20,974 nt of DNA from positions 1-20,974 of IMG/VR virus record IMGVR_UViG_3300032267_001396, one strand, 5' to 3'. The translations under genes and the position numbers were made by a program. This stretch comes from a virus. The notes under the pieces are model-generated. The model saw only the letters and a program-made list of their open reading frames with translations, searched no databases and was not told the DNA's origin. This document shows positions 1-20,974 of the stretch, piece by piece. Numbering within the stretch: position 1 is the first letter of the stretch; each line of letters starts with the position of its first letter.

Positions 1-697
1 GACTTGCTCCCTGTAAACCACCGAGATAAAAGTTTTTAGGTGATAATAAATTTTGTTGATTATTATAAGTAAATCCATTCAAACTTAATGTTGCATTTCC
101 ACTTATCGCACCATTAACGGTTAATGACGCATCTGTAGCTGGTGTATTTGTCTTAATGCAAACATTTCCGTTTTTGTCAATCAAGAATGGTGTAGTGTCA
201 CCTGCCGAATCTTCAACTCTTAATGCATATCCAGAATTATCTACTTGTATTATATGTATGGCTCCTATCGTGTTGAATGATGATAATGTAATTGCTGCAT
301 CGGGTTTAAACGTACCCGCTCCTATTTTTCCTTGTGTGTCGATTATAAATGGAGTTTTTTCGTTTACTTCATCATATACATGTAAAGCATCCCCGCCACC
401 CGCTTGAGATAACAATAATGTTGGTTGTGTTGAATTTGCACATAGCGTAATTTGTGATGTCAAATAAACTTTATTAGCCGTAAGTGTGTTAAAAAAAACA
501 CTATCCAAATTTAAAGTATCTCTTACGTAAATATTTTTAGCAGATAATATTCCAGTTGCCGTTAAAGACCCATTTAAATGGAAATTTCCTCTAAATGGTG
601 CATCTTTACTTGCAATTGGATCATGACCAGCATCCGGATTAAATGGGTCTGTGTCCGTGTGGTGGTTTTTTCTATGAAATTTTGAATGGATAGTCAT
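1..697 (-). CDS. Tail fibre / receptor-binding type protein, 3' end beyond the window
   Basis: The minus-strand frame opens with ATG at 697 and stays open for 232 codons to the left edge, so the C-terminus is missing. The N-terminus is histidine- and polar-rich (MTIHSKFHRKNHHTDTDPFN). It is followed by short beta-rich segments of the type 'FHLNGSLTATGILSAKNIYV', which are typical of phage fibre shafts. Two copies of a module follow, at residues 104-138 and 158-196, sharing AL-x-V-x-D...TPF-x-ID-x-x-G...P-x-A and then a TL or LTVNG strand. The gene starts immediately after the tandem TAA TAA stop region of the 2006-residue gene, so it is probably co-transcribed with it as the last known member of the tail module. 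Host recognition is inferred from position and composition; no receptor-binding domain is visible. No Shine-Dalgarno sequence precedes the start. Confidence 0.75.
   Translation of the reverse strand, partial: MTIHSKFHRKNHHTDTDPFNPDAGHDPIASKDAPFRGNFHLNGSLTATGILSAKNIYVRDTLNLDSVFFNTLTANKVYLTSQITLCANSTQPTLLLSQAGGGDALHVYDEVNEKTPFIIDTQGKIGAGTFKPDAAITLSSFNTIGAIHIIQVDNSGYALRVEDSAGDTTPFLIDKNGNVCIKTNTPATDASLTVNGAISGNATLSLNGFTYNNQQNLLSPKNFYLGGLQGAS
110..388 (-). repeat. Two diverged copies of a TPF-x-ID fibre module
   Basis: Residues 104-138 (bases 284-388) and 158-196 (bases 110-226) of the left-edge fibre align. Both read AL-x-V-x-D, then TPF(I/L)ID, then (Q/N)G, and end in a TL-type strand. The copies are diverged at the DNA level, so this is an old protein-domain duplication. 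More copies may lie beyond the left edge. Confidence 0.6.
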
Positions 698-700
698 TTA

Positions 701-3700
701 TTAATATTTATTTACAAGGTCTACAAAATCATTACAACAAGAAGATGATGCAAGCTTCCACATTGTTGATGGTGCATATTGAATTGGAAAATCTTTTTCA
801 AGTTCTTTATATGTTATGGGATTCACATCACAAATTCTAATAACTGGTAAACTTAAATTGTAACAAGACATTGATTTCCAAGACCAGCAAAACGGAGAGA
901 AACAACCATTATTTACACCAGACTGAATTCTAATATCAGAAACTTCTAAATAATTTCTAAGTAAATCCAATGCATTAAATAATTTTTCAAGCTCTCGGTT
1001 TAAAACTTGTGGCACATGCAATTCATTTACACCAACTCCTATGTTTTCATTTTCAATGTAACTTGAAAATACTGGTCTTTCGGATGGAGAAATTGGTGTT
1101 AATGTAAAGTATGTTATTGTCCCAGATGGTATAGTCTCAGTTGCTATTACAAATTTAGAATTTATTATATTTCTATAATATTTAATATTTTGTACCATTC
1201 TTATTAAGGATTTATTGTAATTTATATCTTCTGCAAAATCTTCATTTGATAATAATAACTGATCAAGTGTCCAATAATTTTGTTCCAATCCATCTCCAAT
1301 TTTAAAATACTCAACAACATCTTGAATTTTTAAAATACTATTATCGGTTGATATTAGCATTGATCTGTATTGAGAACCTTTAACACCCGTATAAGTTAAC
1401 GAACTGCTGTTTGGTATTTCCACCAAATCAATAAAAATACCAGTAGTTGCATACTTATATATGTACTTGCTTGTTACTACGTAAAAAAATTCCCCAACCT
1501 CATCGAAATCGATACCTTTTATTGCATCTTTAATTGAAATTTCATTTAAATTTATTATCTCAAAATAATTTTTACTATTTTGTTCAAAAATATAAATTTT
1601 ATTTTTATCTGTTAATACATATAAAAACATTACATTTGGATCTGGATGTATTGTAATATTTTGTATTTTTTCGGAATCAAACTCATTAACATAGTACGTA
1701 TGTTTCCAGTTTAAATCGGATGTAAATTGTTTAATACATGCATTTCCATAATCTAAAACATAAACATAATTATTTGAATAAATTAACTGTGATGGTGAAT
1801 TGAATTTAGATGGATCTTCCTTTTTTCCGAAGTTTCCAACCACAAGTTGTACATTTATTTCCGGAATGTAAGAAAAATCAAAATTAAATTTATAAATTTT
1901 ATTTTTGAAAGAATCCAACACAAATCCATATGTTCCGTTTTCATCCGTGAAAGAATCTATTGATACTGGATTTGGAATTAAGGGTTTAATGTCATTTATA
2001 TTTTCAAATATTCTTTCTTGTGGTATTTTTGCAGAAGAGAATGCTCTTAGTTCTGTACCATCAATAACTAATAAATGGTCGCGTGTTTCTGAAAAAGATT
2101 TTATTTTTGAAAAATAATTATTATTTTTACCAGTTGATGTTGCAAGATAAGGTTTATCCCATTCCAAAAGTCCATAATCTTTCGTATTCCACTGTATGCC
2201 TCTAGCTGTGTATGTGGTTTCGGTTCCAAGCCAGCCATAAAATAATGTCGGAGTCTTTATACTTATGGTTTGTGAATTATATCTCAAATATTCAAAATTA
2301 GAATGTAATCTAGAAATTGCAGTGTTAAAAATATCAACATCTGCAAATTCGTTTGGTTGTATTTTTATTTGATCTAATGTATATGTATTTTCATAATCAT
2401 CCCCAAATGATAATTTTGTTTCATTTAAAAGTCTAACTTTTAATTGATTGTATGAAGCCCATTCGGAATACACATTCAACTTGGAATTCATTTCTAATGC
2501 TCTAGTTATTCCTGTATTATATATCGCAGAAAGAGATATTGTATATTGACCCGGATATTCGTACGAATGAAATAATGATTTATTTATTGTTGAATAATAA
2601 TTGTTTGCGGTGTCTCCGTAATTTATATAAAACGCATTTATTTTTATTTCTTTACCATCTATAATAACATTGTCTGGTGATTCAAATTCAAATTTAAAAT
2701 TTTGACCAGTTAATGCGTAATATGTAGAAACAAAAATTTCTGGAAGCACCGCAGTATTATATGCAACTATTGTAGTTGTATTCCCCGTCACATCTTGATT
2801 TATGGTTTTCCACAAAAATCTATCTTCTGTATATGACCCCGTCGAATAATTTGAAAATGTTGTACTTGGTATATTTGTTATTACTGATCCAGATGCTGTT
2901 AATTTTAATTTATTAAATTTGTATTTACTTACTGTTAATGGTGTTAATGGATCTCCAGTATTTAAAAAGAATAAATCAAAATTTCCATCTAATGGCGGCA
3001 CATATCTATCAACTTTCCAATCATCCGATTCCAATGTATATTTTATATATTTTGCTTGTTTTAAATCATATATCAATTGATTTGGTTGACTTTCAATTGA
3101 TTTATTACCATCAATCCCAAACTTTTGATTTATTGATATTAATTTGTTATTTAATAAATCAACTGATGTTATTTGTGGTGTAAAATTTAATGTGATCTTA
3201 TTATAAGGTAACAATTTTGGTGATCTATTGAAAGAATTTTTAAATGTTTTTGAATCAAACGGTATAGATTCAGCAGTTATATTGAAACTTTTTGTTATTA
3301 TTTGGTTTAATTCTAATGTTTTATAGGTTAATCCCATGTTTTCTGGATATTTTTTACCATATGAAATTAAACTTAATCTCATTCCAGAATTTCTATAAAA
3401 TGAAGTAGAATATGGTATATTTATTAAATTAACTATATTATAAATATTTGTTAAATATTTGCTATCGTAATCATAATACAACTTGCAATTATCAAAATTA
3501 TTTTTGTTCGCTGAAAGATAAAAGTTTTGAGTATTTGAAATTTTATTATCATATGCGGTTGGTGCATTTGATAATGTATAATTTCCTTGATTCAACAAAA
3601 CCAATTCTTTGGAATTTTGAGGCCAATAATATGGGGGGTATGTTATAAACTCCAATTTTGTATCAAAATCTTCAGGTTTTTCTGTATAAATTGTTATACT

Positions 3701-6700
3701 TTTTTGTAAATTAAATTTATTTAACCAATTTACAGGACACGCATCAACTGCACATAATGATATAGTCGTTATTCTTATATCTGTATTTGTAATATCATAA
3801 GTAAATGCGGATATTGCAGAAAAAGAAGTTGATGATAATGATTTTTTAAACCCATTATCACTTTTAGCATCCCAACAAAAATATTTTGCTGATATTTGGG
3901 GTAAAACATCCGTATTTGCTAAAAATGTATATGTATTATTTGAACCCATTTTTCGGGTTAACACGTTTTGTTCCAGCCTAGTATCTAGTATTATATCTTG
4001 TTTAAACCCAGTGTATACCACTTTAAAATCTGTATTGAAAATTTCGGGATTTGGAACATCTTCGATATCAGCAGAAAATAAACCATTTATATTAGAAGAA
4101 TTTGATTTATGTAAGAATACATTCAAATCATGCGTTAATGGTTTTTTGTTATTTGTAGTTAAATCCGTATTTAATAAATTTTTAACTTCTAAACGTATGG
4201 AACTTAATGCAGTTGCAGTATCGGATGTTCCATATTTATAAACAATATTTGTGTCTCCGTAATATGCGGTGATTGGTATTTTTTTAGGGTCGTTTTCAGA
4301 ATCAAAAGTCCAAGTCCAATTAATTGAACTATCTTTTGGTATCAAATAATCATAATTATCTACGTTTACCAAGCCCGTCAAATAAACGTATTTTGTATTT
4401 ATATCATTTAATATTGGTTTTTTCAATCCGACTATAAATTTTTTGTCTTTATAATAATCAAATAAACTGGAATTTGTTTTATATGTTTCAATTTGATTTT
4501 GTATATCAGAATATAGCGTTACTATTGTCGAAACTGGTCCATAACCAGAAATTCTTACAGTCGAAGTTGTGTTGTCAAAATTTAAACTTTGATTTGGTTT
4601 TATTTTTTGTATAAATTTTTTTGTATCGTAATCGATAGCATTGATGGTTACATCGTGTAAGAATGTCTCGTCGCCATATGGCTCAATGCTCCAAGTTATA
4701 TTTGATGGATTTGTATAATCTTTTACAATTTTTTTTAAAAAACTATCGTATCTTGGTGTATATCTTAAATCAATATATGGAAATACATTTTCTGATGTTA
4801 AATGTGCTACTGATAGATCTACATAATTTTGTTTTTCATCTAATTTTATAAAATATATATCAGAGTAATCATTTTGTATTATATCTTCTAAAAATGTTAC
4901 GGTTGTAGTATTTAAAGAATCTAATATAGTATTTAATTGAGTTTTTATTGATGTTCTAAACCCAAGATCCATTTGACCATAGTTTCCATTATAATCTATT
5001 TTAAAATATTGACCAGCTGTAGCGGGTATCCACATTGTTTCCCCGGTTGCATTATTAAACCAAGTACTTAAATCATAACTAATAAAATTTGAATTTAATT
5101 CATCTGGACTATACCAAATTTTAATATCTTGATCTTTAAAGAATTTTTTAAAATCATTTATATTTTTATTTAAAACGTTTATGGGTGTTAATTTTATTGA
5201 ATCATTTTTTGCAAATAAATCTAAGTCTAAATATAATTTTTTAAAATCTGAATAAATGCCATTTTTTATTAGTAATGATGCAGTTGTTTTTAATTTTTTA
5301 TTTTCGAGTATAACCGTATTTTCTTGTTTGTCCAATATTTCAGAATACACAAAAAATCTTAAATTATTATTTCCGTTTAGTTTATTTGAAAAATTTAAAG
5401 ATGGTGCATTGAAACCAATTTTAAATGTATAATAGTGTGGTGGATATTGTAAATTCCAAATTAATTGATCGTAATTTTTATTATTTACAGAAACAGTTAA
5501 ACCACTTAATGACTGTGTTGGGTATTTGATATTTCCAACTGACAAGTTTTTAACTATATTTGTTAAACTTTGATTTCCGATTTTTGAAGATTCTGCCATA
5601 TAGCTAACTGTAAACATGCTATCTGGTACACCGGATATTAATGGAACTTTTCTATTAGATAATAATAATGGATAATTGTAATATCTAAGATTTGTAGTAT
5701 TTATATTTATATTACAACTTAATACCGTATTAAATGAATCATGCAAAACGACATTGTCATTTAAACTACTCTGCAATAATTGAAATGTTAAATTGTTTGG
5801 ATTTTTTAATTTATCATAATCAGTTATATATGTTGAATTAAATCCTATATTTTTATGTAAATCTTCATATCTAATATTAGATAATTGATATAATTGTTTT
5901 TCTTTTATTGCATCATTTTCATCGTATATTGGCGCGTAAAACTGTATATCATATGCCAATGAAACTGTTTCGGGGTTTATATAATATTTTGTACTATCTT
6001 GTGAATTTGTGTCTATTAAATTTACACTAAAATATAAAGGATTAAAATAGTTAGCACCAGAAGAAAAATATATAATAGGTTGATTAACGATACATTGAAA
6101 TCCACTAATTGAATACACTAGATTTAAATCATTTATTTTTGGTATTGGTATAAATGATTTATTCCAATCTAATAAATAGTCTGATATTATATCATATGCT
6201 TTATTTTCCCCTCTACCATTTGGTTCTAAATAAGAATATGATACTGCGCTTATCAAGACTGCCGATGTTGTTAATGTAAATGTGTTATCTTTATTGGCTG
6301 TTGCATTTAAAGGATTTAAATATAATCTAAAAGGATTTACTAAGCTTGTATAATCTTTTTGTATATTGCTTTTAACATCTTTAATTCCAATTTTAAAAAA
6401 ATTAAAAACTTCTCCAAAATTATTTGTTTTTAACGATGATGGTGTCCAATAAAAAACTGAAGTAAGATCATTTGGATCATAATTTAAGGCTACTGAATCG
6501 TGTAAATCGCTATAAGCTAATGTACCATTTATCACTTGAAATGTAGAACTTGTTAAATTTACATTTGTTTCATTTCTAGGATTATTAATATGTCTAAATT
6601 TATTAGAAGCTCGTACTGGACCTAGAGAACTATCTATTTTTTCCAAATCGGGATCAATTTTATATCGTTCAATTGGCCAATTTCCGATTGTAGTTATTGT

Positions 6701-6721
6701 AAATGGTAAATAATCCGCCAT
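701..6721 (-). CDS. Giant virion protein with PKD/Ig-like modules and an NHL-type beta-propeller (2006 aa)
   Basis: The product is probably a baseplate- or tail-attached structural protein; no enzymatic motif is seen. The first roughly 1,300 residues are low-complexity-tolerant, beta-rich, Asn/Tyr/Ser-rich segments resembling a chain of Ig-like or PKD-like domains. A clear PKD-type signature lies near residues 1345-1420: a YGD turn, then HSYEYPGQYTISLSA. An NHL-type beta-propeller follows between about 1500 and 1800, the best blade being near 1638-1663 (FNSPSQLIYSNNYVYVLDYG). A module of about 45 residues occurs on both sides of the propeller (near 1437-1485 and 1805-1855), sharing GD...E...TLDQ...N-E-x-FA...R. 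The last 70 or so residues hold six cysteines, including a terminal CC pair. The start ATG at 6721 has only an AT-rich leader. It lies 41 bases after the 1093-residue gene, with which it shares the MAD N-terminus. Confidence 0.75.
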   Translation of the reverse strand: MADYLPFTITTIGNWPIERYKIDPDLEKIDSSLGPVRASNKFRHINNPRNETNVNLTSSTFQVINGTLAYSDLHDSVALNYDPNDLTSVFYWTPSSLKTNNFGEVFNFFKIGIKDVKSNIQKDYTSLVNPFRLYLNPLNATANKDNTFTLTTSAVLISAVSYSYLEPNGRGENKAYDIISDYLLDWNKSFIPIPKINDLNLVYSISGFQCIVNQPIIYFSSGANYFNPLYFSVNLIDTNSQDSTKYYINPETVSLAYDIQFYAPIYDENDAIKEKQLYQLSNIRYEDLHKNIGFNSTYITDYDKLKNPNNLTFQLLQSSLNDNVVLHDSFNTVLSCNININTTNLRYYNYPLLLSNRKVPLISGVPDSMFTVSYMAESSKIGNQSLTNIVKNLSVGNIKYPTQSLSGLTVSVNNKNYDQLIWNLQYPPHYYTFKIGFNAPSLNFSNKLNGNNNLRFFVYSEILDKQENTVILENKKLKTTASLLIKNGIYSDFKKLYLDLDLFAKNDSIKLTPINVLNKNINDFKKFFKDQDIKIWYSPDELNSNFISYDLSTWFNNATGETMWIPATAGQYFKIDYNGNYGQMDLGFRTSIKTQLNTILDSLNTTTVTFLEDIIQNDYSDIYFIKLDEKQNYVDLSVAHLTSENVFPYIDLRYTPRYDSFLKKIVKDYTNPSNITWSIEPYGDETFLHDVTINAIDYDTKKFIQKIKPNQSLNFDNTTSTVRISGYGPVSTIVTLYSDIQNQIETYKTNSSLFDYYKDKKFIVGLKKPILNDINTKYVYLTGLVNVDNYDYLIPKDSSINWTWTFDSENDPKKIPITAYYGDTNIVYKYGTSDTATALSSIRLEVKNLLNTDLTTNNKKPLTHDLNVFLHKSNSSNINGLFSADIEDVPNPEIFNTDFKVVYTGFKQDIILDTRLEQNVLTRKMGSNNTYTFLANTDVLPQISAKYFCWDAKSDNGFKKSLSSTSFSAISAFTYDITNTDIRITTISLCAVDACPVNWLNKFNLQKSITIYTEKPEDFDTKLEFITYPPYYWPQNSKELVLLNQGNYTLSNAPTAYDNKISNTQNFYLSANKNNFDNCKLYYDYDSKYLTNIYNIVNLINIPYSTSFYRNSGMRLSLISYGKKYPENMGLTYKTLELNQIITKSFNITAESIPFDSKTFKNSFNRSPKLLPYNKITLNFTPQITSVDLLNNKLISINQKFGIDGNKSIESQPNQLIYDLKQAKYIKYTLESDDWKVDRYVPPLDGNFDLFFLNTGDPLTPLTVSKYKFNKLKLTASGSVITNIPSTTFSNYSTGSYTEDRFLWKTINQDVTGNTTTIVAYNTAVLPEIFVSTYYALTGQNFKFEFESPDNVIIDGKEIKINAFYINYGDTANNYYSTINKSLFHSYEYPGQYTISLSAIYNTGITRALEMNSKLNVYSEWASYNQLKVRLLNETKLSFGDDYENTYTLDQIKIQPNEFADVDIFNTAISRLHSNFEYLRYNSQTISIKTPTLFYGWLGTETTYTARGIQWNTKDYGLLEWDKPYLATSTGKNNNYFSKIKSFSETRDHLLVIDGTELRAFSSAKIPQERIFENINDIKPLIPNPVSIDSFTDENGTYGFVLDSFKNKIYKFNFDFSYIPEINVQLVVGNFGKKEDPSKFNSPSQLIYSNNYVYVLDYGNACIKQFTSDLNWKHTYYVNEFDSEKIQNITIHPDPNVMFLYVLTDKNKIYIFEQNSKNYFEIINLNEISIKDAIKGIDFDEVGEFFYVVTSKYIYKYATTGIFIDLVEIPNSSSLTYTGVKGSQYRSMLISTDNSILKIQDVVEYFKIGDGLEQNYWTLDQLLLSNEDFAEDINYNKSLIRMVQNIKYYRNIINSKFVIATETIPSGTITYFTLTPISPSERPVFSSYIENENIGVGVNELHVPQVLNRELEKLFNALDLLRNYLEVSDIRIQSGVNNGCFSPFCWSWKSMSCYNLSLPVIRICDVNPITYKELEKDFPIQYAPSTMWKLASSSCCNDFVDLVNKY
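1151..2417 (-). repeat. Duplicated TLDQ module flanking the beta-propeller
   Basis: Copy A lies at about 2262-2417 and copy B at about 1151-1312 on the minus strand, separated by the propeller-coding part of the gene. Both copies read hydrophobic-x-hydrophobic-GD, E, Y, TLDQ, N-E-x-FA or N-E-FA, D-I, N, I-x-R, N, Y-x-R. They differ by about one inserted residue before TLDQ. The similarity is at protein level only. Confidence 0.6.
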
Positions 6722-6762: not shown

Positions 6763-9700
6763 CTAATCTAAAAAACCCAAACCTTTATATAATTCATAAT
6801 TGAATGATGTTTCAACTATTCCTTCACTCATCAACCAGCTATTTAGTGATGACATGTTATATTGAAGAGTTGTGTTGATATTATTCCAATCAATAACACC
6901 TTCTATTTGATTGGTTGGTGTTGTTTGTACAAATGAATAATAGTTGTAAAAATTACTATTAAATTCATCTGTTATTTTTAAAAATTCAGAAAGTGTATTT
7001 AACGAGTAATTTTTTTCACCATCTATCAAACCAGTTTTTATGTATTTGTATTTCCTTAATGATTTTGAATGCAATAATACCGGAATACCAGCTGTTACAT
7101 AATATGTCGATGTATCTAATTTAATTCCAACATTTTTTAAATCTACAAAGTAATTATCATTCAATAATGCACCCCATAATTTTGATTTATTTATACTTGT
7201 TAAATCCATCAATCTTTTAATTGCTATTGGATAGTTTATTCTATAATCATCAGAATTTTGATCAACCGATTCCGCTATATCGTATAAAGCTTTAATACCG
7301 CAAACATCTATATCAGAGTTATTTTTTAAAAAGTTTGAAACTTTCTCATATGCAGTTACACCCAAATCGTAGTGATTTTCTAATCCGTATATATTTTTTA
7401 AGAAATCGTCAAATAATGTAACACTTTCACGCAAAGATGGTGTAAATGCCAATGATTTCAAATTTTCAGTAAAATCATAATCTTCGTTTATTTTGAATAT
7501 TTCATATGGATTTTTATCATAAAAATCAATAATTCTAGATTCTCCGGTTAAAGTTTTTGAAATTGTATAAGCTGAATTATTTTTGTATTTATTAATCCAT
7601 TTACAACCTGTCCAATCACCCATCATATTAATTGATTTTAACCATGGATGATATTCTATTTCTGTTTTTGCGGAATAGTTGCTTATAGCTTTGTATTTAT
7701 CTATTGTAATTAATTCATCTTTTTGAGCAGGATATATATTAAATCCTTTTGGGTTTACATTGAAAAAATTTTCAAATTTTTGATTTTTAATAGAAAACAT
7801 CTCAATTTTATTTGCTAATGAATTTACTACTAGAATATTATCATTACCATCGTACGCGATGCCGTTCAATGCTGGTTCTTCAACGTTTAATAAAAGTTTT
7901 CCATCATTACTTATTGAATCTGGTATTTTTGAATATATTCCGGTTAATGGAACGGCATGGGATACAAGTGTACCATCTGTTTTTATGCTTCCAATATAAC
8001 TATAACTATGTGTAAACCATAAATTTTGATCATAATCAATTGTCAAATTATTGATTTTATTAAATGGTCCAAAACAACTTAAAATTTTCCCATTTGTATC
8101 TCTTTTTTGTAAAAAATGAGATATTCCATATATGTTATTTGATAATGATAACCATATGTTTTCGTCTTTATCACAAACAATTTCATTTGGACAAGAAGAT
8201 ATTGATAATGATATCGTGTTGATTAAATTTCCAGTGGATGAAACCTTTACTAAAAAACTACTAAATGGATTTGAATATGTTATCCATGCATTGTTGTAAA
8301 TATCAGTATCTACACAAGTTGGTGTTATAAAATTTTCAATTTGCGTTGATGTTAATGGGTAGTATTGACTGTCGTAAATCCATTTGTATAAATCAGATGA
8401 ATTGTTTAAATCGAGTGTTTTTTCATTAATCGGCGAAACCCCAAATAATAATTTTCCAACACTATTAAATTTTAAAGTTGATGTTGTATTGTATAGTGTA
8501 ACCCATATATTTCTATCACCATCAATTGCAGAATAATAAGGTGTTGTATATTTTTTATTTAATAATTTATCAATATCTATCGAACATAAAACACTTCCTC
8601 TTGATGAAAATCTATATAAACTATTTAATTCGGAATCCACGCCCCATGCTTGATAATATGGATTTTGTAATGCTGAAATACACTTTAACCCATTAAACCC
8701 CGTAATATCTACAGACTGTGTTGTAAAATTTGCAACTTTTTTTATTGGTGTTTCAATTGTTGATATAAAAGCTGGTTCTTGAAAATTGTTTTTGGATAAT
8801 AATAATTTATTAGTATTATTATATTCATTATATTGTCCAATGTGTAAAGTACCCCCCATTTGATTTGATAACCAAAATAAATAATTGTCGTAATTATAAA
8901 AATTTAACGATAAAAATGCATTTGAAGTCAATAAAGCATTAAGAGAAGAAGTTTGTATTGTAAAATTTCCTTTATAATAGCCCGAAACAATATACCCAGT
9001 ATCATCTTTATATTTAAAATTTATTGGGGTAGGATAAAAACTAGAACTTAATTGATCTGAACCTACGTCTATATTTATAATGGAAGAAGTGCTGTCGTCT
9101 GGTAAATTTTTTAAAAAGTAAAAATCTGGATTATATGGTTTTATTCCATTTCCATCATATAAATCATAATGATATTCAAGTTGTTTATTACTTGGAGTTA
9201 TTATAATTGGAATTTGCGTATTTGTCCATTTGGGGTTTCTGTGTTCAACTGCTCCGTTCTCTGTTATTTTTAAATAATCAGGTACTCTATAAAGAAAAAG
9301 ATGTGGCATTGCAGTTTGAACCAAGCTATTACTAAAACTTTCAATTTCTGGTGTTTGATTTTTTTTATCTTGAAAAGATTTAATAGTCAGAGTTTGTAAT
9401 GTTGCAATTATTGTTGTATATGGTTTATTAAAATATGCTAAATCTGTATTATATATATCATCTATGAAATAAAATTCAGCAGTTCCGGTAACACCAGCAA
9501 CCATTCCACTTCTGTCTAATCTTCCATTATTGTTTACTTTTATTATTGTATCTGTTGTTTTTATTTTGTTTATTACATTTCCATTTAAATCAACAAATTT
9601 CCATTCGGGTCTAAGAAATGACCATTTATTAGTTGGCTCTTGGGGTGCATATGATTTTGAATTTGCTGCATATAAATCAATATAATGTTCATTCGTACTT

Positions 9701-10044
9701 GATGAGGTTATATTTATTTTAAATGGGTATTTATTATAATGTCCAGCATATGTTGGCGGTGGTAAAATATCAAAATAAATAGATTCGTTTAATAATAATT
9801 TTACCTCAACCGTATCTTGGTAAACATCAAACGATCCATTTGCTTTATACGCATTAAGAGTTACCGTGTAATATCCGCTATTATTATAACTGTGAGTTGG
9901 GTTTGATAATCTCGATCTTGATGAATCTCCAAAATCCCACAAATATTTTACATAATTAAATTGTTGTAATGAATTAGTGTTAAATGAAAAAATAGTTACA
10001 TTAACATATCCAGATGTTTTTGAAATTGTAAAATTATCTGCCAT
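6763..10044 (-). CDS. Large virion protein: N-terminal PKD domain, Vgb/NHL-like beta-propeller, alpha-helical C-terminus (1093 aa)
   Basis: Residues 5-82 form a textbook PKD domain: WDFGDSS at 36-42, then P-x-H-SY and GYYTVTLNA at 57-65. About 455-755 contains repeated blade motifs of the form 'N-(I/A/L)-W-(V/I/L/F)-(T/S)', followed by a hydrophobic-K-x-x-(S/T)-x-G-x-L strand. Blades are seen near WGVDSELNSLYRF, NIWVTL, NAWITY, NIWLSL and NLWFTH, resembling virginiamycin-B-lyase-type or NHL propellers. The lyase function itself is not implied. Residues after about 820 look helical and globular and may anchor the protein to the virion. Its place directly after gp6 corresponds to gp7 in T4, and its length is close to that of T4 gp7 (about 1030 aa), but I see no clear sequence match. 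The start ATG at 10044 lies 5 bases after the gp6 stop, so the two are translationally close. No Shine-Dalgarno sequence is visible. The role is inferred to be baseplate-peripheral. Confidence 0.75.
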   Translation of the reverse strand: MADNFTISKTSGYVNVTIFSFNTNSLQQFNYVKYLWDFGDSSRSRLSNPTHSYNNSGYYTVTLNAYKANGSFDVYQDTVEVKLLLNESIYFDILPPPTYAGHYNKYPFKINITSSSTNEHYIDLYAANSKSYAPQEPTNKWSFLRPEWKFVDLNGNVINKIKTTDTIIKVNNNGRLDRSGMVAGVTGTAEFYFIDDIYNTDLAYFNKPYTTIIATLQTLTIKSFQDKKNQTPEIESFSNSLVQTAMPHLFLYRVPDYLKITENGAVEHRNPKWTNTQIPIIITPSNKQLEYHYDLYDGNGIKPYNPDFYFLKNLPDDSTSSIINIDVGSDQLSSSFYPTPINFKYKDDTGYIVSGYYKGNFTIQTSSLNALLTSNAFLSLNFYNYDNYLFWLSNQMGGTLHIGQYNEYNNTNKLLLSKNNFQEPAFISTIETPIKKVANFTTQSVDITGFNGLKCISALQNPYYQAWGVDSELNSLYRFSSRGSVLCSIDIDKLLNKKYTTPYYSAIDGDRNIWVTLYNTTSTLKFNSVGKLLFGVSPINEKTLDLNNSSDLYKWIYDSQYYPLTSTQIENFITPTCVDTDIYNNAWITYSNPFSSFLVKVSSTGNLINTISLSISSCPNEIVCDKDENIWLSLSNNIYGISHFLQKRDTNGKILSCFGPFNKINNLTIDYDQNLWFTHSYSYIGSIKTDGTLVSHAVPLTGIYSKIPDSISNDGKLLLNVEEPALNGIAYDGNDNILVVNSLANKIEMFSIKNQKFENFFNVNPKGFNIYPAQKDELITIDKYKAISNYSAKTEIEYHPWLKSINMMGDWTGCKWINKYKNNSAYTISKTLTGESRIIDFYDKNPYEIFKINEDYDFTENLKSLAFTPSLRESVTLFDDFLKNIYGLENHYDLGVTAYEKVSNFLKNNSDIDVCGIKALYDIAESVDQNSDDYRINYPIAIKRLMDLTSINKSKLWGALLNDNYFVDLKNVGIKLDTSTYYVTAGIPVLLHSKSLRKYKYIKTGLIDGEKNYSLNTLSEFLKITDEFNSNFYNYYSFVQTTPTNQIEGVIDWNNINTTLQYNMSSLNSWLMSEGIVETSFNYELYKGLGFLD

Positions 10045-10049
10045 ATGAA

Positions 10050-11858
10050 TTAAAATTCTGCTAATTTAATATTACCACTTGTTTCTTCTATTATTATTTT
10101 AGATGTCACATTTTTTATATTATTAAATATTGGATATTTAAAAGTGTTTAATTGTAAATTCTGCGTATATACCTTGGAATCAGCTAATGGATAATAATAA
10201 TTCCATATTAATAAAGAAATGCCATCGATATATGAATTGGTATCACTTCTATAAGTTTGAACGTTTTTAACACCATCAACATTGAAAATAGATGTCGATA
10301 GTTGATATATGTCTATTACTTGTCCCAATTTATTCACTTTTCTATTAAATGTGTCGTTTATTATTTTTTCTATATCGGATAAAATAGCAGAATTGGATCT
10401 TCTACTATTTTCTTTTTTTGTTATAAGTAAATATGATTGATCCAAATCTTTTGGCGATGCATCGGAATTTAGATTTGGAATATAAAAATCTATGTACATA
10501 TAAACTGGATCAATTGGTACTATTTCAGATGTTAATGTTTTATTTGGATTTAAACCGTTTATAATGTATTCTTTTTGTGCTGGTGCTAAGTAATTTTGAT
10601 CTCCGCTTTTTGGTACAAGATAAACATATATGTTATTAAAATTGCAACTATCTGCAAATTTGATTTGATTCATTAATATTGCATCGTCTTTTTGTGGACT
10701 ATCCAATCCAATATCATAAAGATACTTTATATGCTCTTTCATGTAATTTTCATTATTCAATATTTTGACATCGGATATTATATTTGAAAAATTAGTTTTT
10801 ATATATGCTTCATAATCAAGAGATGTAACAAGTCTATATTGTGATCTAAATGCCTTTGGGGCATTCTTTTTAATCATTTCAACACTTTCTTCATCCGTAA
10901 AGAAAGTGGATGGATAATCATTATTGAGAAGCAAGTATCTTAAATTTCCATCAGGTACAACGGTTCCCAAATTATTAACATTTAAATTTGAAAAAATTTC
11001 ATCAAAACGTAAAGATTTAAAATTTACAATTTTTGTATTTTGCAAAGCGTTTACACCTAAATTTGCTGAATCCTTATCAATTTTTAAATAGTAAATTGCG
11101 ACTTGATCATTTTCGTTTAAACGTTTACCATTAACATCATCTCCAAATTTTATTTCATATCTTTTATTTTCATTAAATCTAACTTGAAAAATACGATCAT
11201 TTGAGCTATATAAAAATGTTTCTGGTACTCTTTGCCATTCTTGCCAATAATTTGAATTTTTTTGTTTTACAAAAACATATATATTAAAGTGATCAATGTA
11301 TTCATTTTCAAGTAATGAAATATAAACGGTTTCATTGTCAACACCAATTGCATTATATGTATCATATTCTTGAAAAAGACCTTGATATAATAAATAATTA
11401 TTTGAAATTTCTGTTATATAATCCGTGCCATTTGTTGGTTTATAAAATTTAATATCAGCATTAAAAGAATAACTAGTACCCCCAACATTAATATAACTAA
11501 ATCTAGGTATAATATAATTTCCTGTGGTTATATTTGAATCAACGGTTAAAGTGAATGGAAGCGTTTGACCTAATCTTCCTATTGGGTTATAATTTAATAT
11601 TTTAACTAATCTATTTATATTCTCATATATTTGAGCATCCGAAAACGATGTCTCTGATGATGTTTTATTCAAATAATACATCAAAGTACTAAAACTATAA
11701 CTTATAATATCTAAAAAAGCTGATAGGTTTGAACCTTGATAATTTTGATCTGTAAAAATTTTACTGTTATTTAATCTATTAACGATCAAATCTCTGAGAC
11801 TGTTAGCGTCAAAAGTTATATATGAATTTTTAGTTAAAAGTTGATCTGAATCGTTCAT
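10050..11858 (-). CDS. 6: Baseplate wedge protein, T4 gp6-like (602 aa)
   Basis: This is a member of the T4 gp6 / baseplate J-like family. It would join neighbouring wedges into the baseplate ring and trigger sheath contraction. The N-terminal segment FDANSLRDLIVNRL, followed by Y-x-GSNLSAFLDIISYSFSTLMYYLNK and the IYENINRLVKILNYNPIGR stretch, matches the conserved gp6 N-terminus in order and spacing. The central beta-rich region ends with YEIKFGDDVNGKRL, which is typical of J-like proteins. The C-terminal half has SLDYEAYIKTNF and the late VDGVKNVQTYR segment. At 602 residues it is slightly shorter than T4 gp6 (660). It lies just after gp25, as wedge genes often do. A TATAAATA motif sits five bases before its ATG. 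Confidence 0.85.
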   Translation of the reverse strand: MNDSDQLLTKNSYITFDANSLRDLIVNRLNNSKIFTDQNYQGSNLSAFLDIISYSFSTLMYYLNKTSSETSFSDAQIYENINRLVKILNYNPIGRLGQTLPFTLTVDSNITTGNYIIPRFSYINVGGTSYSFNADIKFYKPTNGTDYITEISNNYLLYQGLFQEYDTYNAIGVDNETVYISLLENEYIDHFNIYVFVKQKNSNYWQEWQRVPETFLYSSNDRIFQVRFNENKRYEIKFGDDVNGKRLNENDQVAIYYLKIDKDSANLGVNALQNTKIVNFKSLRFDEIFSNLNVNNLGTVVPDGNLRYLLLNNDYPSTFFTDEESVEMIKKNAPKAFRSQYRLVTSLDYEAYIKTNFSNIISDVKILNNENYMKEHIKYLYDIGLDSPQKDDAILMNQIKFADSCNFNNIYVYLVPKSGDQNYLAPAQKEYIINGLNPNKTLTSEIVPIDPVYMYIDFYIPNLNSDASPKDLDQSYLLITKKENSRRSNSAILSDIEKIINDTFNRKVNKLGQVIDIYQLSTSIFNVDGVKNVQTYRSDTNSYIDGISLLIWNYYYPLADSKVYTQNLQLNTFKYPIFNNIKNVTSKIIIEETSGNIKLAEF

Positions 11859-11876: not shown

Positions 11877-12383
11877 TTATATTATAATCTCTCCGTTTTT
11901 TTTGGCTAATATATCCAAAACAGATTCTTTTTTTATTTCCAAAAATCTATAAAACATTTTGATTTCATATTGTAATTCATTTATGTTCGGAGTTACAATA
12001 ATTTTTAAAACTTCTATTCTTGGTTCATATGTTTGAATTACAGATAAAATCTCATCACCTATAGCTCTGGCATAAACATCGTTTAATGGTAAGAACAAAT
12101 ATTGATCTAAGGAGCAACCAAATACAGGATTTAATATTTTTTGACCTTTTCTGGTTGTTAAAATATTTCTAATTGAATTTTTTATAGCATTTATATCTGT
12201 ATCTATAGCTAAATCTGTTGAATTAACAGGATTGGTGCCAATGCCTATTGATCTGTTTATATTTAAATCTAAATGCAAATCAGTATAAACGCTTTCTTCT
12301 TGTTTCACTCGTTGAGTGTAATCTTGAACCTTAAAGTTCGTTTGTTTTGGTTTTACAAAATTATTTAAATCTATTAGTGCCAC
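11877..12383 (-). CDS. 25: Baseplate wedge protein, T4 gp25-like (168 aa)
   Basis: This is a gp25/GPW-family baseplate protein, a small lysozyme-like-fold subunit that sits at the inner baseplate and nucleates sheath assembly. Diagnostic features are the DL...AIKNSIRNILTTRKGQ(K)ILNP-x-FG stretch at about 66-89 and the family EPR motif at 120-122 (TYEPRIEV), followed by alternating hydrophobic strands. T4 gp25 is 132 residues; the extra length here is mainly N-terminal. The start codon is GTG at 12383; no in-frame ATG lies upstream before a stop, and a GTG start is unusual for this window. It precedes gp6 by 18 bases, forming a wedge operon. It is divergent from the plus-strand gene at 12434, with 50 bases between. 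Confidence 0.88.
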   Translation of the reverse strand: MALIDLNNFVKPKQTNFKVQDYTQRVKQEESVYTDLHLDLNINRSIGIGTNPVNSTDLAIDTDINAIKNSIRNILTTRKGQKILNPVFGCSLDQYLFLPLNDVYARAIGDEILSVIQTYEPRIEVLKIIVTPNINELQYEIKMFYRFLEIKKESVLDILAKKNGEIII

Positions 12384-12433: not shown

Positions 12434-12952
12434 ATGTCAAAGTTTAAAAAGTTTAATACATTATTAGAAACCGCATTTTCTCATTATTCAAATGGTGGAT
12501 TTCGTGAAGGTACTCCCGTAAAAATAAAAAAGAGTTTTTTATCTACGGAATATTGTAAAAAGCATTATATCAATGATGAATCTTTCATCAACTGGTTAAC
12601 GGATTTAATAGAAAGAGAATATTTTTTCTTTATAAAAAGAGTAGTTGGACATGGTTCAATGCAAAATGTAAAAGACTCAAATGATAACGAAGGTGCAGGA
12701 GATGTATTTTTAATTTTAAAAATGGATCCAAGATCAGTTTCGATGCCAACTGAATTGGCTGAGTTTACAGTGCCCGGCGATTTTAACCATATTGAAGTTT
12801 TAAATTTTGGTGTTAATTTACCACCAGTACAAAGTGTTCCAAATAATTACGAAACTCCAATTGGTACAAAACCAGAACCAGTTACAATTAATATAAATTT
12901 AGGTAATCAACCAACTGACAATTCATTACCTAAAACAAATACTAAGATTTAA
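12434..12952 (+). CDS. Conserved-looking small phage protein of unknown function (172 aa)
   Basis: I do not recognise a named family. The ATG at 12434 (MSKFKKFNTLLE) is chosen over an upstream ATG at 12395, because the extra 13 residues look non-coding and would run over the gp25 promoter-like motif. The N-terminal half is basic and globular, with a 'NGGF-x-EG-x-PVKIKKSFL' segment. I recall similar GGF-x-x-G-x-x-VK starts in small uncharacterised proteins of marine T4-like phages, but cannot verify this. The C-terminal 45 residues are Pro/Asn/Thr-rich and probably disordered (TKPEPVTININLGNQPTDNS). The gene is one of only two plus-strand genes here, and its stop overlaps the stop of gp44. Overall base composition matches its neighbours. 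Confidence 0.65.
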   Translation: MSKFKKFNTLLETAFSHYSNGGFREGTPVKIKKSFLSTEYCKKHYINDESFINWLTDLIEREYFFFIKRVVGHGSMQNVKDSNDNEGAGDVFLILKMDPRSVSMPTELAEFTVPGDFNHIEVLNFGVNLPPVQSVPNNYETPIGTKPEPVTININLGNQPTDNSLPKTNTKI

Positions 12953-13878
12953 AGTGTTTTTTTGATATTCAAAATCAAACAGAACATATTAATTTCATGA
13001 TCTATTACTAGGTTATCCCTATACATATGTTCGCCTATTTCCAATAAAACGCTTTTCTTTTTTTCGTCTTTTACTAAATCTGTTAAAAAAAACAGTTCAA
13101 ATAATTCTCTCATCAAGCTTTGATAATTAGATCCAAATGTTTTTTCACTTTCTATTATCAATTTTCTAATTTCAACATCTGATGTTTTTTTAATTAAATT
13201 ATCAAAAACTGTTTGTGCAAAGTTTTTTACTTTATCGGTTCCATTTATTACTAAAGAACCAGTTATTGAAAACATTTGCAAATCATTTATTATTCTCCTC
13301 ATATCGGGGAAATTATTCTCTATATAGGTTAATAATTTTTCTTTTTGATTATCTTCTACTTTTACATTTTCACTTTTTAATATAAAACAAACTCTCTTGA
13401 TAACATCATCCAATTCCGGTAAAACATTAAAAAGTAAACATCTCGAACACAGGGGTTCTATAATTCTGTTTATATAATTAGCGGTCAATATGAACCTTGT
13501 GGTTGATGCATATTCTTCCATTACATTTCTCAGTATGCGTTGGGAATCCACAGATAGACCGTCAGCTTCATCTAAAATTATAACTTTCTTTTTACCATCA
13601 AATGAAGACGTTTGTGAAAAAGATATAACTTTATTTCTTATGGTGTCTACCCCATTTTCATCTGATGCGTTTATATATAAATATTGACATTTTAAAACGT
13701 CATTTACCAAAATCTTTGATAAAGCGGTTTTACCAATACCCGGACTTCCATGAAAAAGCATATGGGGGGTGTCGTCGTTTATCTTTGAAAAGAAATTTCT
13801 GTTATCTTTTGATAAGACGATGTCCTGTATTGTTTTCGGTGAATATTTATTCACCCATAAATCTCTATACTTATTCAT
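12949..13878 (-). CDS. 44: Sliding-clamp loader large subunit, T4 gp44-like AAA+ ATPase (309 aa)
   Basis: With gp62 it would load the gp45 clamp on DNA using ATP; it is related to archaeal and eukaryotic RFC small subunits. Counting from the ATG at 13878: WVNKYSPKTIQDIV near 8-21, Walker A GSPGIGKT at 44-51, Walker B VIILDEAD at 99-106, sensor-1 LTAN at 131-134, and the arginine-finger SRC motif at 145-147 (PLCSRC). T4 gp44 is 319 residues, so this is full length. The frame could extend seven codons upstream to a TTG or GTG, but ATG is preferred because those codons fall within a palindrome and ATG has AAAGAG just before it. The gene stands between late structural genes, which is unusual for a replication gene. 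gp62 and gp45 are not in the window. Confidence 0.9.
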   Translation of the reverse strand: MNKYRDLWVNKYSPKTIQDIVLSKDNRNFFSKINDDTPHMLFHGSPGIGKTALSKILVNDVLKCQYLYINASDENGVDTIRNKVISFSQTSSFDGKKKVIILDEADGLSVDSQRILRNVMEEYASTTRFILTANYINRIIEPLCSRCLLFNVLPELDDVIKRVCFILKSENVKVEDNQKEKLLTYIENNFPDMRRIINDLQMFSITGSLVINGTDKVKNFAQTVFDNLIKKTSDVEIRKLIIESEKTFGSNYQSLMRELFELFFLTDLVKDEKKKSVLLEIGEHMYRDNLVIDHEINMFCLILNIKKTL

Positions 13879-13881
13879 TTT

Positions 13882-13903
13882 CTCTTTAGTGTACACCAAA
13901 GAG
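13882..13903 (-). promoter_or_regulatory. 22-bp palindrome immediately upstream of the gp44 ATG
   Basis: On the plus strand, ctcttt (13882-13887), one base, the self-complementary gtgtacac (13889-13896), one base, and aaagag (13898-13903) form an inverted repeat with a single mismatched pair. In the gp44 message the 3' arm (AAAGAG) ends three bases before AUG and contains the only SD-like bases, so folding would hide the ribosome site. There is no T-run, so it is not a terminator. It could be a translational operator or a binding site for a dimeric protein. Confidence 0.55.
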
Positions 13904-18060: not shown

Positions 18061-18522
18061 TCATTTTAAAGCCTTTTCATTAAGAATTAAAAATATATAA
18101 TTTTTTTGAGCCGCCCATTTTTTCGCACATTCCCATTTTGCTAAGTTTATAGCATATTGAGTATTTTCATAAATTATAGTTGATTGTTTTTTTCTTTTTG
18201 AAATTGTTGGCGGTAATGTTTGTTTTTCGGGTTTTACTTCTATTAAAAGTTTTTTTATTGTCCCGTCTCTTGATTTTAATTCAGCCACCAAATCAACAAA
18301 ATATCTATGCATTCTTCCATCTATGGGGGATTTATATGGTATTATTACGCTTTCACTTCCCCATGAAATAATATTTGGATTTTTATCCAAGTATCTAAAT
18401 GCAGTAAGTTCTAATGACGATCTGTATATTATAGGAAAAGAACCTCTATACTTGTCTTTGTTTATTAAATTATATTTACCTTGGCTGAAATTTTTATTTT
18501 TTTTACCAAAGAATTTTGACAT
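18061..18522 (-). CDS. 4: Head completion protein, T4 gp4 (gp50)-like, TnsA-type nuclease fold (153 aa)
   Basis: Required late in head assembly in T4, it has a PD-(D/E)XK nuclease fold related to the TnsA N-terminal domain. The visible pattern follows T4 gp4 (150 aa) closely: YNLINKDKYRG near the start; YRSSLE with the conserved Glu38; NPNIISWGSESVIIPYKSPIDGRMHRYFVD with Asp77; LLIEVKP with Glu95 and Lys97; a basic P-x-x-x-KRKKQ segment; and YAINLAKWECAKKW. The putative catalytic D...E-x-K set is intact. The ATG at 18522 lies 9 bases after the gp13 stop, so the genes are likely coupled. Linkage to gp13 and gp21 differs from T4, where gene 4 lies near 2, 64 and 53. Confidence 0.9.
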   Translation of the reverse strand: MSKFFGKKNKNFSQGKYNLINKDKYRGSFPIIYRSSLELTAFRYLDKNPNIISWGSESVIIPYKSPIDGRMHRYFVDLVAELKSRDGTIKKLLIEVKPEKQTLPPTISKRKKQSTIIYENTQYAINLAKWECAKKWAAQKNYIFLILNEKALK

Positions 18523-19417: not shown

Positions 19418-20974
19418 TTAATTGATTCTATATGTTTGGAATGTGGTTGATGATAGTTTTCTAATTCTAAACGTTGCAGATGTACCAATTGCAACTATAT
19501 TATTACCCGTTGCTGTCGCTGGTCCGCCGGGTGCGGCTACTCCAGTTCCACCCGCTAATGTAACCGCTCCAGCAGATGTTCCATAATTTATTATATTAAA
19601 ATCAAATGCACCATTTATTGGTAAATTAACATCAAAAACGGAAGATGCGGGAAGGGTTAATGTTAATGCTGTTGTTGCTGTACATGTTATAATTTTAGAC
19701 TGCAAATGTATTAATGATAAAGTGGTTGAAGTAGTAAAGTTTGAAGGGGTTGGTTGTAATTGTAAATATGTTCCATTTACAACAACATTTCCTTGTGAGC
19801 TTAAATTGTTCACATATGTATATGATGGAACGCTTGTTGTTATATTAGAACCTAATATAAATGTATTACAATGGTTGGTGGTATTAAGATAACCACCCAA
19901 TATAGAAGAATTAGCCCCAGAGGCAATATTGCAACAACCGCCAGCTACATTCGAATAAATTGCAGAGGCTGTATTACAAGAACCACCCGCTATAGTCGAA
20001 CCAGTAGAACAAGATACATTAAAACAACCACCAGCTACAATTGAATATTTTCCAGTAGCTGTATTACAAGAACCACCCGCTACCTGTGAATAATCCCCAG
20101 AAGCTGTATTACAAGAACCACCCGCTACCTGTGAATAATTTCCAGAAGCTGAATTCCATGAACCACCAGCTACGTTTGAACCCAAGCTACATGCACGGTT
20201 AAAATAACCACCAGCTACGTTCGAAAAACACACATTAGCACGATTACTTAAACCACCAGCTACATTTGAATAAGTTCCAGACGCTGTATTCAATGAACCA
20301 CCAGCTACGTTTGAAAAACCCCCATAAAATGCACAAGAACAACCAGCTACATTACAATAACCACCACTTACCGTTGAATGACATCCACAAGCTCTATTGG
20401 CATAACCACCAGCTACGTTTGAAAAAACACAAAAAGCATAATTACTGCAACCACCATTTACATTTGAATATTCTCCGCAGGTCAGATTATATATACCACC
20501 AGATATGTTTGACGTAATTCCATAAGCGATATTACAATAACCGCCACCTATACTGGAACAACTCCCAGTACCACAAACAAGATTGCCACTACCTCCAGAT
20601 ATAGACGAGTTACTACCAAGAGCTGTATTATTATAACCACCACTTACCGTTGAATGACATCCACAAGCAGTATTATAGAATCCACCAGCTACGTTTGAAA
20701 AACACACATTAGCTGTATTACGGCGACCGCCAGCTACGTTTGAATAACATGCAGAAGCTGAATTGCATAAACCACCAGCTACGTTTGAATATTTTCCATA
20801 AGCTGTATTACGGCAACCACCAGCTACCTGTGAATAATTTCCAGAAGCTGTATTACAGTAACCACCAGCTACGTTTGAATAACATGCAGAAGCAGTATTA
20901 TTGAGTCCACCAGCTACGTTTGAACCCAAGCTACATGCACGGTTAAAATAACCACCAGCTACGTTTGAATAACA
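19418..20974 (-). CDS. Repeat-rich fibre protein with YadA-like head repeats, 5' end beyond the window
   Basis: The frame is open through the right edge; the apparent TTG start at 20929 lies inside a repeat, so the true start is outside. The 518 visible residues begin with about 24 tandem 15-residue units of the form Y/F-S-N-V-A-G-G-x-x-N-T-A-S-G-x. These resemble the left-handed beta-roll repeats of trimeric adhesin (YadA-type) heads, though most of those have 14. Cysteine is extremely frequent (about 30 in the repeat region). The final 150 residues form a different domain (LTLTLPASSVFDVNLP, FNIINYGTSAGAVTLAGGTG, ending SSTTFQTYRIN), like the distal or trimerising ends of other phage fibres. 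It probably forms a trimeric adhesive fibre. It is placed directly upstream of gp13. Intramolecular chaperone activity is not evident. Confidence 0.8.
   Translation of the reverse strand, partial: CYSNVAGGYFNRACSLGSNVAGGLNNTASACYSNVAGGYCNTASGNYSQVAGGCRNTAYGKYSNVAGGLCNSASACYSNVAGGRRNTANVCFSNVAGGFYNTACGCHSTVSGGYNNTALGSNSSISGGSGNLVCGTGSCSSIGGGYCNIAYGITSNISGGIYNLTCGEYSNVNGGCSNYAFCVFSNVAGGYANRACGCHSTVSGGYCNVAGCSCAFYGGFSNVAGGSLNTASGTYSNVAGGLSNRANVCFSNVAGGYFNRACSLGSNVAGGSWNSASGNYSQVAGGSCNTASGDYSQVAGGSCNTATGKYSIVAGGCFNVSCSTGSTIAGGSCNTASAIYSNVAGGCCNIASGANSSILGGYLNTTNHCNTFILGSNITTSVPSYTYVNNLSSQGNVVVNGTYLQLQPTPSNFTTSTTLSLIHLQSKIITCTATTALTLTLPASSVFDVNLPINGAFDFNIINYGTSAGAVTLAGGTGVAAPGGPATATGNNIVAIGTSATFRIRKLSSTTFQTYRIN
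19850..20974 (-). repeat. Tandem 45-bp coding repeats (15-residue units)
   Basis: About 24-25 units encode the S-x-V-A-G-G-x-x-N-x-A motif. On the plus strand they appear as recurring ccaccagctacgtttgaa-type words spaced about 45 bases apart. A few units are irregular (17 residues near NLVCGTGS; a short AFYGG unit). The array continues past the right edge. Confidence 0.85.
20163..20965 (-). repeat. 59-bp exact duplication within the fibre repeats
   Basis: Bases 20163-20221 and 20907-20965 are identical, including the unusual unit encoding RACSLGSNVAGG, 744 bases apart. The identity is much longer than between ordinary neighbouring units, so a recent copying, unequal-exchange or repeat-conversion event is likely. 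Confidence 0.75.

Follow-up and report, generated by a model that had tools for sequence, protein, structure and literature searches.

The window analyzed here is a stretch of viral DNA of 20,974 nucleotides (IMG/VR virus record IMGVR_UViG_3300032267_001396, positions 1 to 20,974), and the protein studied is a giant tail protein of 2006 residues from an uncultured T4-like phage. Sequence comparison and structure prediction indicate that the C-terminal ~600 residues of this protein are a self-contained unit, in which a module (M1) is followed by an NHL-type beta-propeller, a second module (M2), a beta hairpin and a third module (M3). The similarity among the modules is best explained by an ancient triplicated helix module, with the propeller lying between the first and second copies. 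With a probability of roughly 0.55, as judged from sequence and model, the unit would be an adaptor between baseplate and fibres at the rim of a T4-type baseplate, its helix modules forming a docking bundle. The positions of these elements are collected in Table 1.

The initial annotation of the window described a pattern GD...E...TLDQ...NE-x-FA...R on either side of the propeller, within positions 1151-2417 (residues 1435-1857, covering M1, propeller and M2). The repeat is borne out: M1 and M2 align by BLASTP with an E-value of 8e-6 (35% identity over 43 residues), and they form the top non-overlapping Smith-Waterman self-match of the whole protein, with a score of 69 that none of 5000 shuffles reached (shuffled mean 27.5, maximum 54). 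Both of these copies are thus genuine, yet the count of two falls short, as a third copy, M3, had been missed. Profiles of 42-residue blocks, cut on the NE motif from a 37-sequence alignment of diverse relatives, were compared by hhalign, which relates M1 to M2 with P 9e-11 (Prob 97), M1 to M3 with P 9e-8 and M2 to M3 with P 1e-4, all three pairs being in the same register. When 93 overlapping windows were scanned, M1 retrieved M2 and then M3 as the best non-self regions, and in the reverse direction both M2 and M3 retrieved M1. AlphaFold assigns the copies the same secondary structure, and unrelated folds were not seen. In an AT-rich genome, chance alone could make short helical segments look alike, with no repeat at all, and the similarity of M2 to M3 is by itself weak (4 of 32 residues identical in the window protein). 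This explanation is already contradicted by the shuffles, the hhalign values for the pairs that include M1, the unanchored scan, in which the modules are the top regions, and held-out detection, both in locus L079, which was left out of the profile and in which all three modules were detected, and in loci fetched through a fibre peptide (below); its probability is negligible.

The module is defined by hydrophobic residues at positions -5 and -3, Asn or Asp at 0, Glu at +1 and an aromatic residue or Leu at +2, followed by a helix with a hydrophobic residue at +8, Asn at +9 and Arg or Lys at +14 in nearly all copies. Without exception, the helix Asn is present in the aligned copies (111 of 111), an N-E...N motif is common to all three modules, and each module carries hydrophobic residues at heptad spacing (+8, +12, +15, +19 and +22, a 4-3-4-3 helix), a pattern which makes the originally suggested self-assembly interface plausible. 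Throughout the alignment (numbered, like the model, as residue minus 1408) the invariant columns are P48, N49, E50 and N58 in M1, N428 and N437 in M2, N491, E492 and N500 in M3, and G224 and K348 in the propeller, with none beyond modules and propeller. A tree of the modules groups them by position and not by genome: M2 and M3 are each monophyletic, and M1 also groups together, five divergent members excepted. On this grouping, the triplication is older than the divergence of the families.

Scans of IMG/VR contigs identified about 36 non-redundant sequences related to the C-terminal region, with identities down to ~20%, and later scans added more. The unit forms the C-terminus of a giant protein in 21 of the 37 non-redundant members (in one case cut short by the contig), is encoded by a separate gene of 674-1055 amino acids in 11, and constitutes a separate protein of 542-818 amino acids, without the Cys-rich tail, in the other 5. 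This tail, modeled at low confidence, is kept in the giant and split family and is absent from the stand-alone members. Full-length homologues of the 2006-residue protein exist (e.g. L008, 36% over 2066 aligned columns), and in most split relatives the N-terminal part is a gene of its own, of ~1230-1310 amino acids. The junction is fused in the window; most split members have an ATGA overlap of the two genes at the identical junction, and L001 and L017 carry an inserted LamG-like domain there (Laminin_G_3 matches). The order M1-propeller-M2-M3 is kept in all relatives with a complete region, and no extra copy of the module was found among 2054 open reading frames (ORFs) of the fetched loci, nor elsewhere in ten contigs of 75-212 kb, save one weak match (E 0.004). 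The proposal of a swappable cassette therefore holds in part. As far as gene architecture can tell, the swappable module is the whole unit, which occurs fused, split off or stand-alone. Exchange of single modules was rejected, given their grouping by position, the monophyly of M2 and of M3 and the lack of extra copies; the modules are not swapped one by one, because the unit was found in no other protein searched.

Some individual loci depart from the common plan. M2-M3 of L168 lie in another frame, which was judged a probable sequencing frameshift and not a true split, because the break falls inside a propeller blade at an A/T-rich run. In L029 (9714-10619) ~300 extra residues follow the unit; they have no Pfam match and include a YELGRNFW segment resembling a degenerate metallopeptidase motif. 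In L170, a reverse-strand ORF of 1288 amino acids, M1 and the propeller are separated by a Cys-rich insertion.

An AlphaFold model built with 3 sequences was discarded (predicted local distance difference test, pLDDT, of 37), while the model of the C-terminal unit built with 37 sequences reached a mean pLDDT of 82.6 and a predicted template modeling score (pTM) of 0.76. In each module, modeled at a pLDDT of about 82-97, a loop bearing the NE motif connects a short helix to a second one of 20-21 residues (H41-44 and H54-73 in M1, H411-414 and H424-444 in M2, H479-482 and H496-516 in M3). Strands 132-399 form the propeller, of about six blades by strand count, and the long helices 54-73, 424-444 and 496-516 sit around them. 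The assignment of the propeller to the NHL type, made at first from sequence, agrees with Foldseek searches of the PDB, in which NHL domains rank first (8j72, 9jur and 6d69; TRIM71 and Thin), with E ~1e-11 and template modeling (TM) scores of 0.68-0.74, normalized by target. The Pfam NHL profile (PF01436) has no match above its gathering score in the window protein, and the homologue L029 narrowly misses that score (18.9 vs 20 bits). The NHL propellers of TRIM71 and Drosophila Thin share the fold of the unit, whose flanking modules lie outside those matches. In BFVD, an uncharacterized 539-residue protein of an uncultured Caudovirales phage (A0A6J7X647) matches the entire unit over 546 columns (E 5e-28, 20% identity), with a TM score by query of 0.60 vs 0.36 for propeller-only matches; as the full-unit match stands far above the latter, an independently made model seems to show the same arrangement.

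The genes around the unit point to a role between baseplate and fibres. The gene order in the window is gp25, gp6, a PKD/propeller protein of 1093 amino acids, the 2006-residue protein and a fibre-like ORF, and in L076 it is gp25, gp6, a large protein and the unit. In S-PM2, gp25 and gp6 likewise lie upstream, and in T4 gp6 does, with large proteins of the wedge periphery and of the fibres after them. In 29 of 36 members the next gene, 24-127 nucleotides past the unit gene, opens with the peptide FHSKFHRxNHHT..NPDAGHDPIAS, of which three stand-alone loci hold a second copy ~0.8 kb further on. The peptide matched 221 loci and is common to the fibres of many uncultured T4-like phages (e.g. L017 and L073); it is probably a docking peptide. 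When loci were fetched with the peptide alone, and not with the unit, the modules were found directly upstream of it in 27 of 36 new loci, including three whose sequence begins within the gene, so that just M2 and M3 are seen (L088, L124 and L153) and one, L154, in which M1 was below threshold and was read by eye. Among the nine loci without upstream modules, the whole contigs of four carry modules elsewhere. Unit and fibre may also be continuous: in L065, L134 and L155 the unit protein is extended by a PT-rich linker and then a Gly_rich_2 tip; the tip of L065 additionally matches a tail-fibre PHROG. In L169 the gene is split between M2 and M3, the two reading frames overlapping as TAATG downstream of a GGAG motif, and the downstream protein starts with M3, followed by a PT linker and a Gly-rich, fibre-like tail.

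Since the conserved unit recurs beside fibre genes in many related uncultured phages, it is probably a socket joining the baseplate to the fibres. We infer a place in the virion, a bundle, an oligomeric state and fibre docking as follows. The unit would sit at the rim of a T4-type baseplate and join the wedge to the fibres; an NE...N cap starts each of its three amphipathic helices, which would pack together as a bundle, whether inside a single chain or about a homotrimer axis. This bundle would hold the propeller in a rigid position, and the M3 end would be the fibre-side element that holds the fibres. A docking or assembly role of the modules is likely, and the early suggestion of a docking or linker domain that mounts the propeller fits the conserved structured helices, the gene position between baseplate and fibres, and the presence of M3 in a separate fibre-like protein in L169. 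More tentatively, M1-M3 might form one pseudo-threefold bundle with the NHL propeller inserted, the third helix being supplied in trans by a fibre protein, which would amount to a new class of baseplate-to-fibre socket common to many uncultured T4-like phages. Several observations weigh against the adaptor role. The HHT fibre motif is not seen in the available flank of 7 of the 36 non-redundant members (the flank of L024 spans 1.1 kb), the arrangement of L169 comes from one contig, and the AlphaFold model is of a monomer only. In addition, tblastn searches of isolate phages (INPHARED) with several different members gave nothing beyond one marginal partial match.

The modules might instead be structural caps, helical brackets that close and stabilize the propeller with no intermolecular role, as M1 and M2 directly border the propeller in a model that is well defined by its pTM. 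This is rather improbable, given that M3 is placed past the hairpin and can belong to a separate polypeptide, as in L169, and that the invariant or near-invariant NE/N residues and heptads of all modules suggest helices which pack together or on a partner.

The closest structural precedent is Gp45 of Staphylococcus phage phi11, a baseplate receptor-binding protein in which helical coils flank a five-bladed propeller (PMC4901313), so that helical segments lie on both sides of a propeller as in the unit. By analogy, the unit could be a receptor-binding device, a homotrimer with M1 as helical stem, three glycan-binding propellers and axial M2 and M3, the modules being oligomerization coils and not fibre sockets. 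The heptad spacing of the modules favors such an arrangement and may be compatible with a homotrimer of this type. Gp45, however, has a five-bladed propeller and a repetitive all-beta tower (PMC4901313), whereas the propeller of the unit appears six-bladed with NHL domains as best match; the description of Gp45 includes no repeated NE-N module (PMC4901313), and no sequence match between it and the unit was found. Moreover, the propeller shows no obvious hypervariability from one relative to another, such as a receptor-binding domain might have; many of its columns are conserved, and dedicated fibre genes lie directly downstream in most of them. The unit as a whole is therefore unlikely to be such a device, although the propeller may itself bind a receptor directly. 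The propeller of phiKZ gp131C (PDB 4GBF, cited in PMC4901313), at the periphery of a myovirus baseplate and of unproven function, is seven-bladed vs about six blades here, and the likeness is one of baseplate-propeller kind.

The view that the module matches no known domain has stood up in all libraries searched. Pfam and PHROGs gave no match for the modules or for the 2006-residue protein, a PDB sequence search with the module gave only chance coiled-coil matches, and hmmsearch --max found no significant match in T4 at 76-100 kb (gp6-gp15) or in the gp25-gp8 region of S-PM2, the gp6-gp12 wedge and connector proteins of T4 and the gp25-gp6-gp8 proteins of S-PM2 being without sequence likeness to it. 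The whole 2006-residue protein had no match in INPHARED, and no relative of the unit was found in bacterial or archaeal genome contigs. The family is new to the libraries searched, while its kind, a propeller-bearing baseplate protein, is already known.

Table 1. Location of the unit and of associated features in the window
Feature	Position	Strand	Basis
N-terminal peptide of next gene (fibre-like ORF 2-697), HSKFHRKNHHT..NPDAGHDPIAS	578..697	-	conserved in most relatives
Coding sequence of 2006-residue giant tail protein carrying the unit	701..6721	-	ORF, ATG start
Cys-containing C-terminal tail, FCWSW.(A/S)MSCYNLSLPVIR	704..934	-	alignment; pLDDT below 50
Module M3, residues 1887-1925, third copy	947..1063	-	hhalign, AlphaFold, held-out detection in L079 and fibre-baited loci
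Beta hairpin after M2, residues 1855-1876	1094..1159	-	AlphaFold E447-456, E459-468
Module M2, residues 1809-1853	1163..1297	-	BLASTP, Smith-Waterman, hhalign, AlphaFold
NHL-type beta-propeller, residues 1540-1807	1301..2104	-	AlphaFold pLDDT mostly >90; Foldseek to NHL domains
Beta strands directly after M1, residues 1484-1513, SQTI..PTLFYGWLG	2183..2272	-	AlphaFold E76-78, E85-91, E102-105
Module M1, residues 1441-1483, TLDQI-x-I-x-PNE...FN heptad helix	2273..2401	-	BLASTP, Smith-Waterman, hhalign, AlphaFold
Putative PKD/Ig-like domain before M1, residues 1325-1420	2462..2749	-	sequence pattern
Junction of N-terminal and C-terminal parts	2786..2809	-	alignment, split loci, Laminin_G_3 matches in insertion
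N-terminal part, residues 1-1307	2801..6721	-	ATGA-coupled split at this point in relatives
Baseplate wedge gp6-like	10050..11858	-	phrog_219, E 1.9e-38
Baseplate wedge gp25-like	11877..12383	-	PF04965, E 3.2e-14

Support for the PKD/Ig-like domain before M1 is weak, since PKD_4 is matched only by the homologue L155, below cut-off (E 0.008). The 1093-residue neighbor (6763-10044, reverse strand) starts with a PKD domain and shows a weak match, below the Pfam cut-off, to a second propeller of Vgb-lyase-like type; it is without the module. Further genes of the window, all on the reverse strand, include a clamp-loader subunit gene between capsid and baseplate genes (12949-13899) and, among head and neck genes, a 153-residue protein matching a TnsA-like endonuclease N-terminal domain (18061-18522, E 1.5e-18), which is conserved alongside the neck gene in L072-L074. 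A fibre-like ORF of SNVAGG repeats (19418-20974), open at the contig end, matches UspA1_rep and an ice-binding beta-roll profile.

The present work names a conserved tail-protein unit, previously undescribed, that many uncultured T4-like phages share. Giant tail proteins now listed as hypothetical can be annotated with the help of the 42-residue module profile and the HHT...DPIAS peptide, and the fibre N-terminal peptide HSKFHRxNHHT..PDAGHDPIAS is a useful marker. The proposed adaptor would offer a testable account of how variable fibres attach to a conserved baseplate in these uncultured phages.
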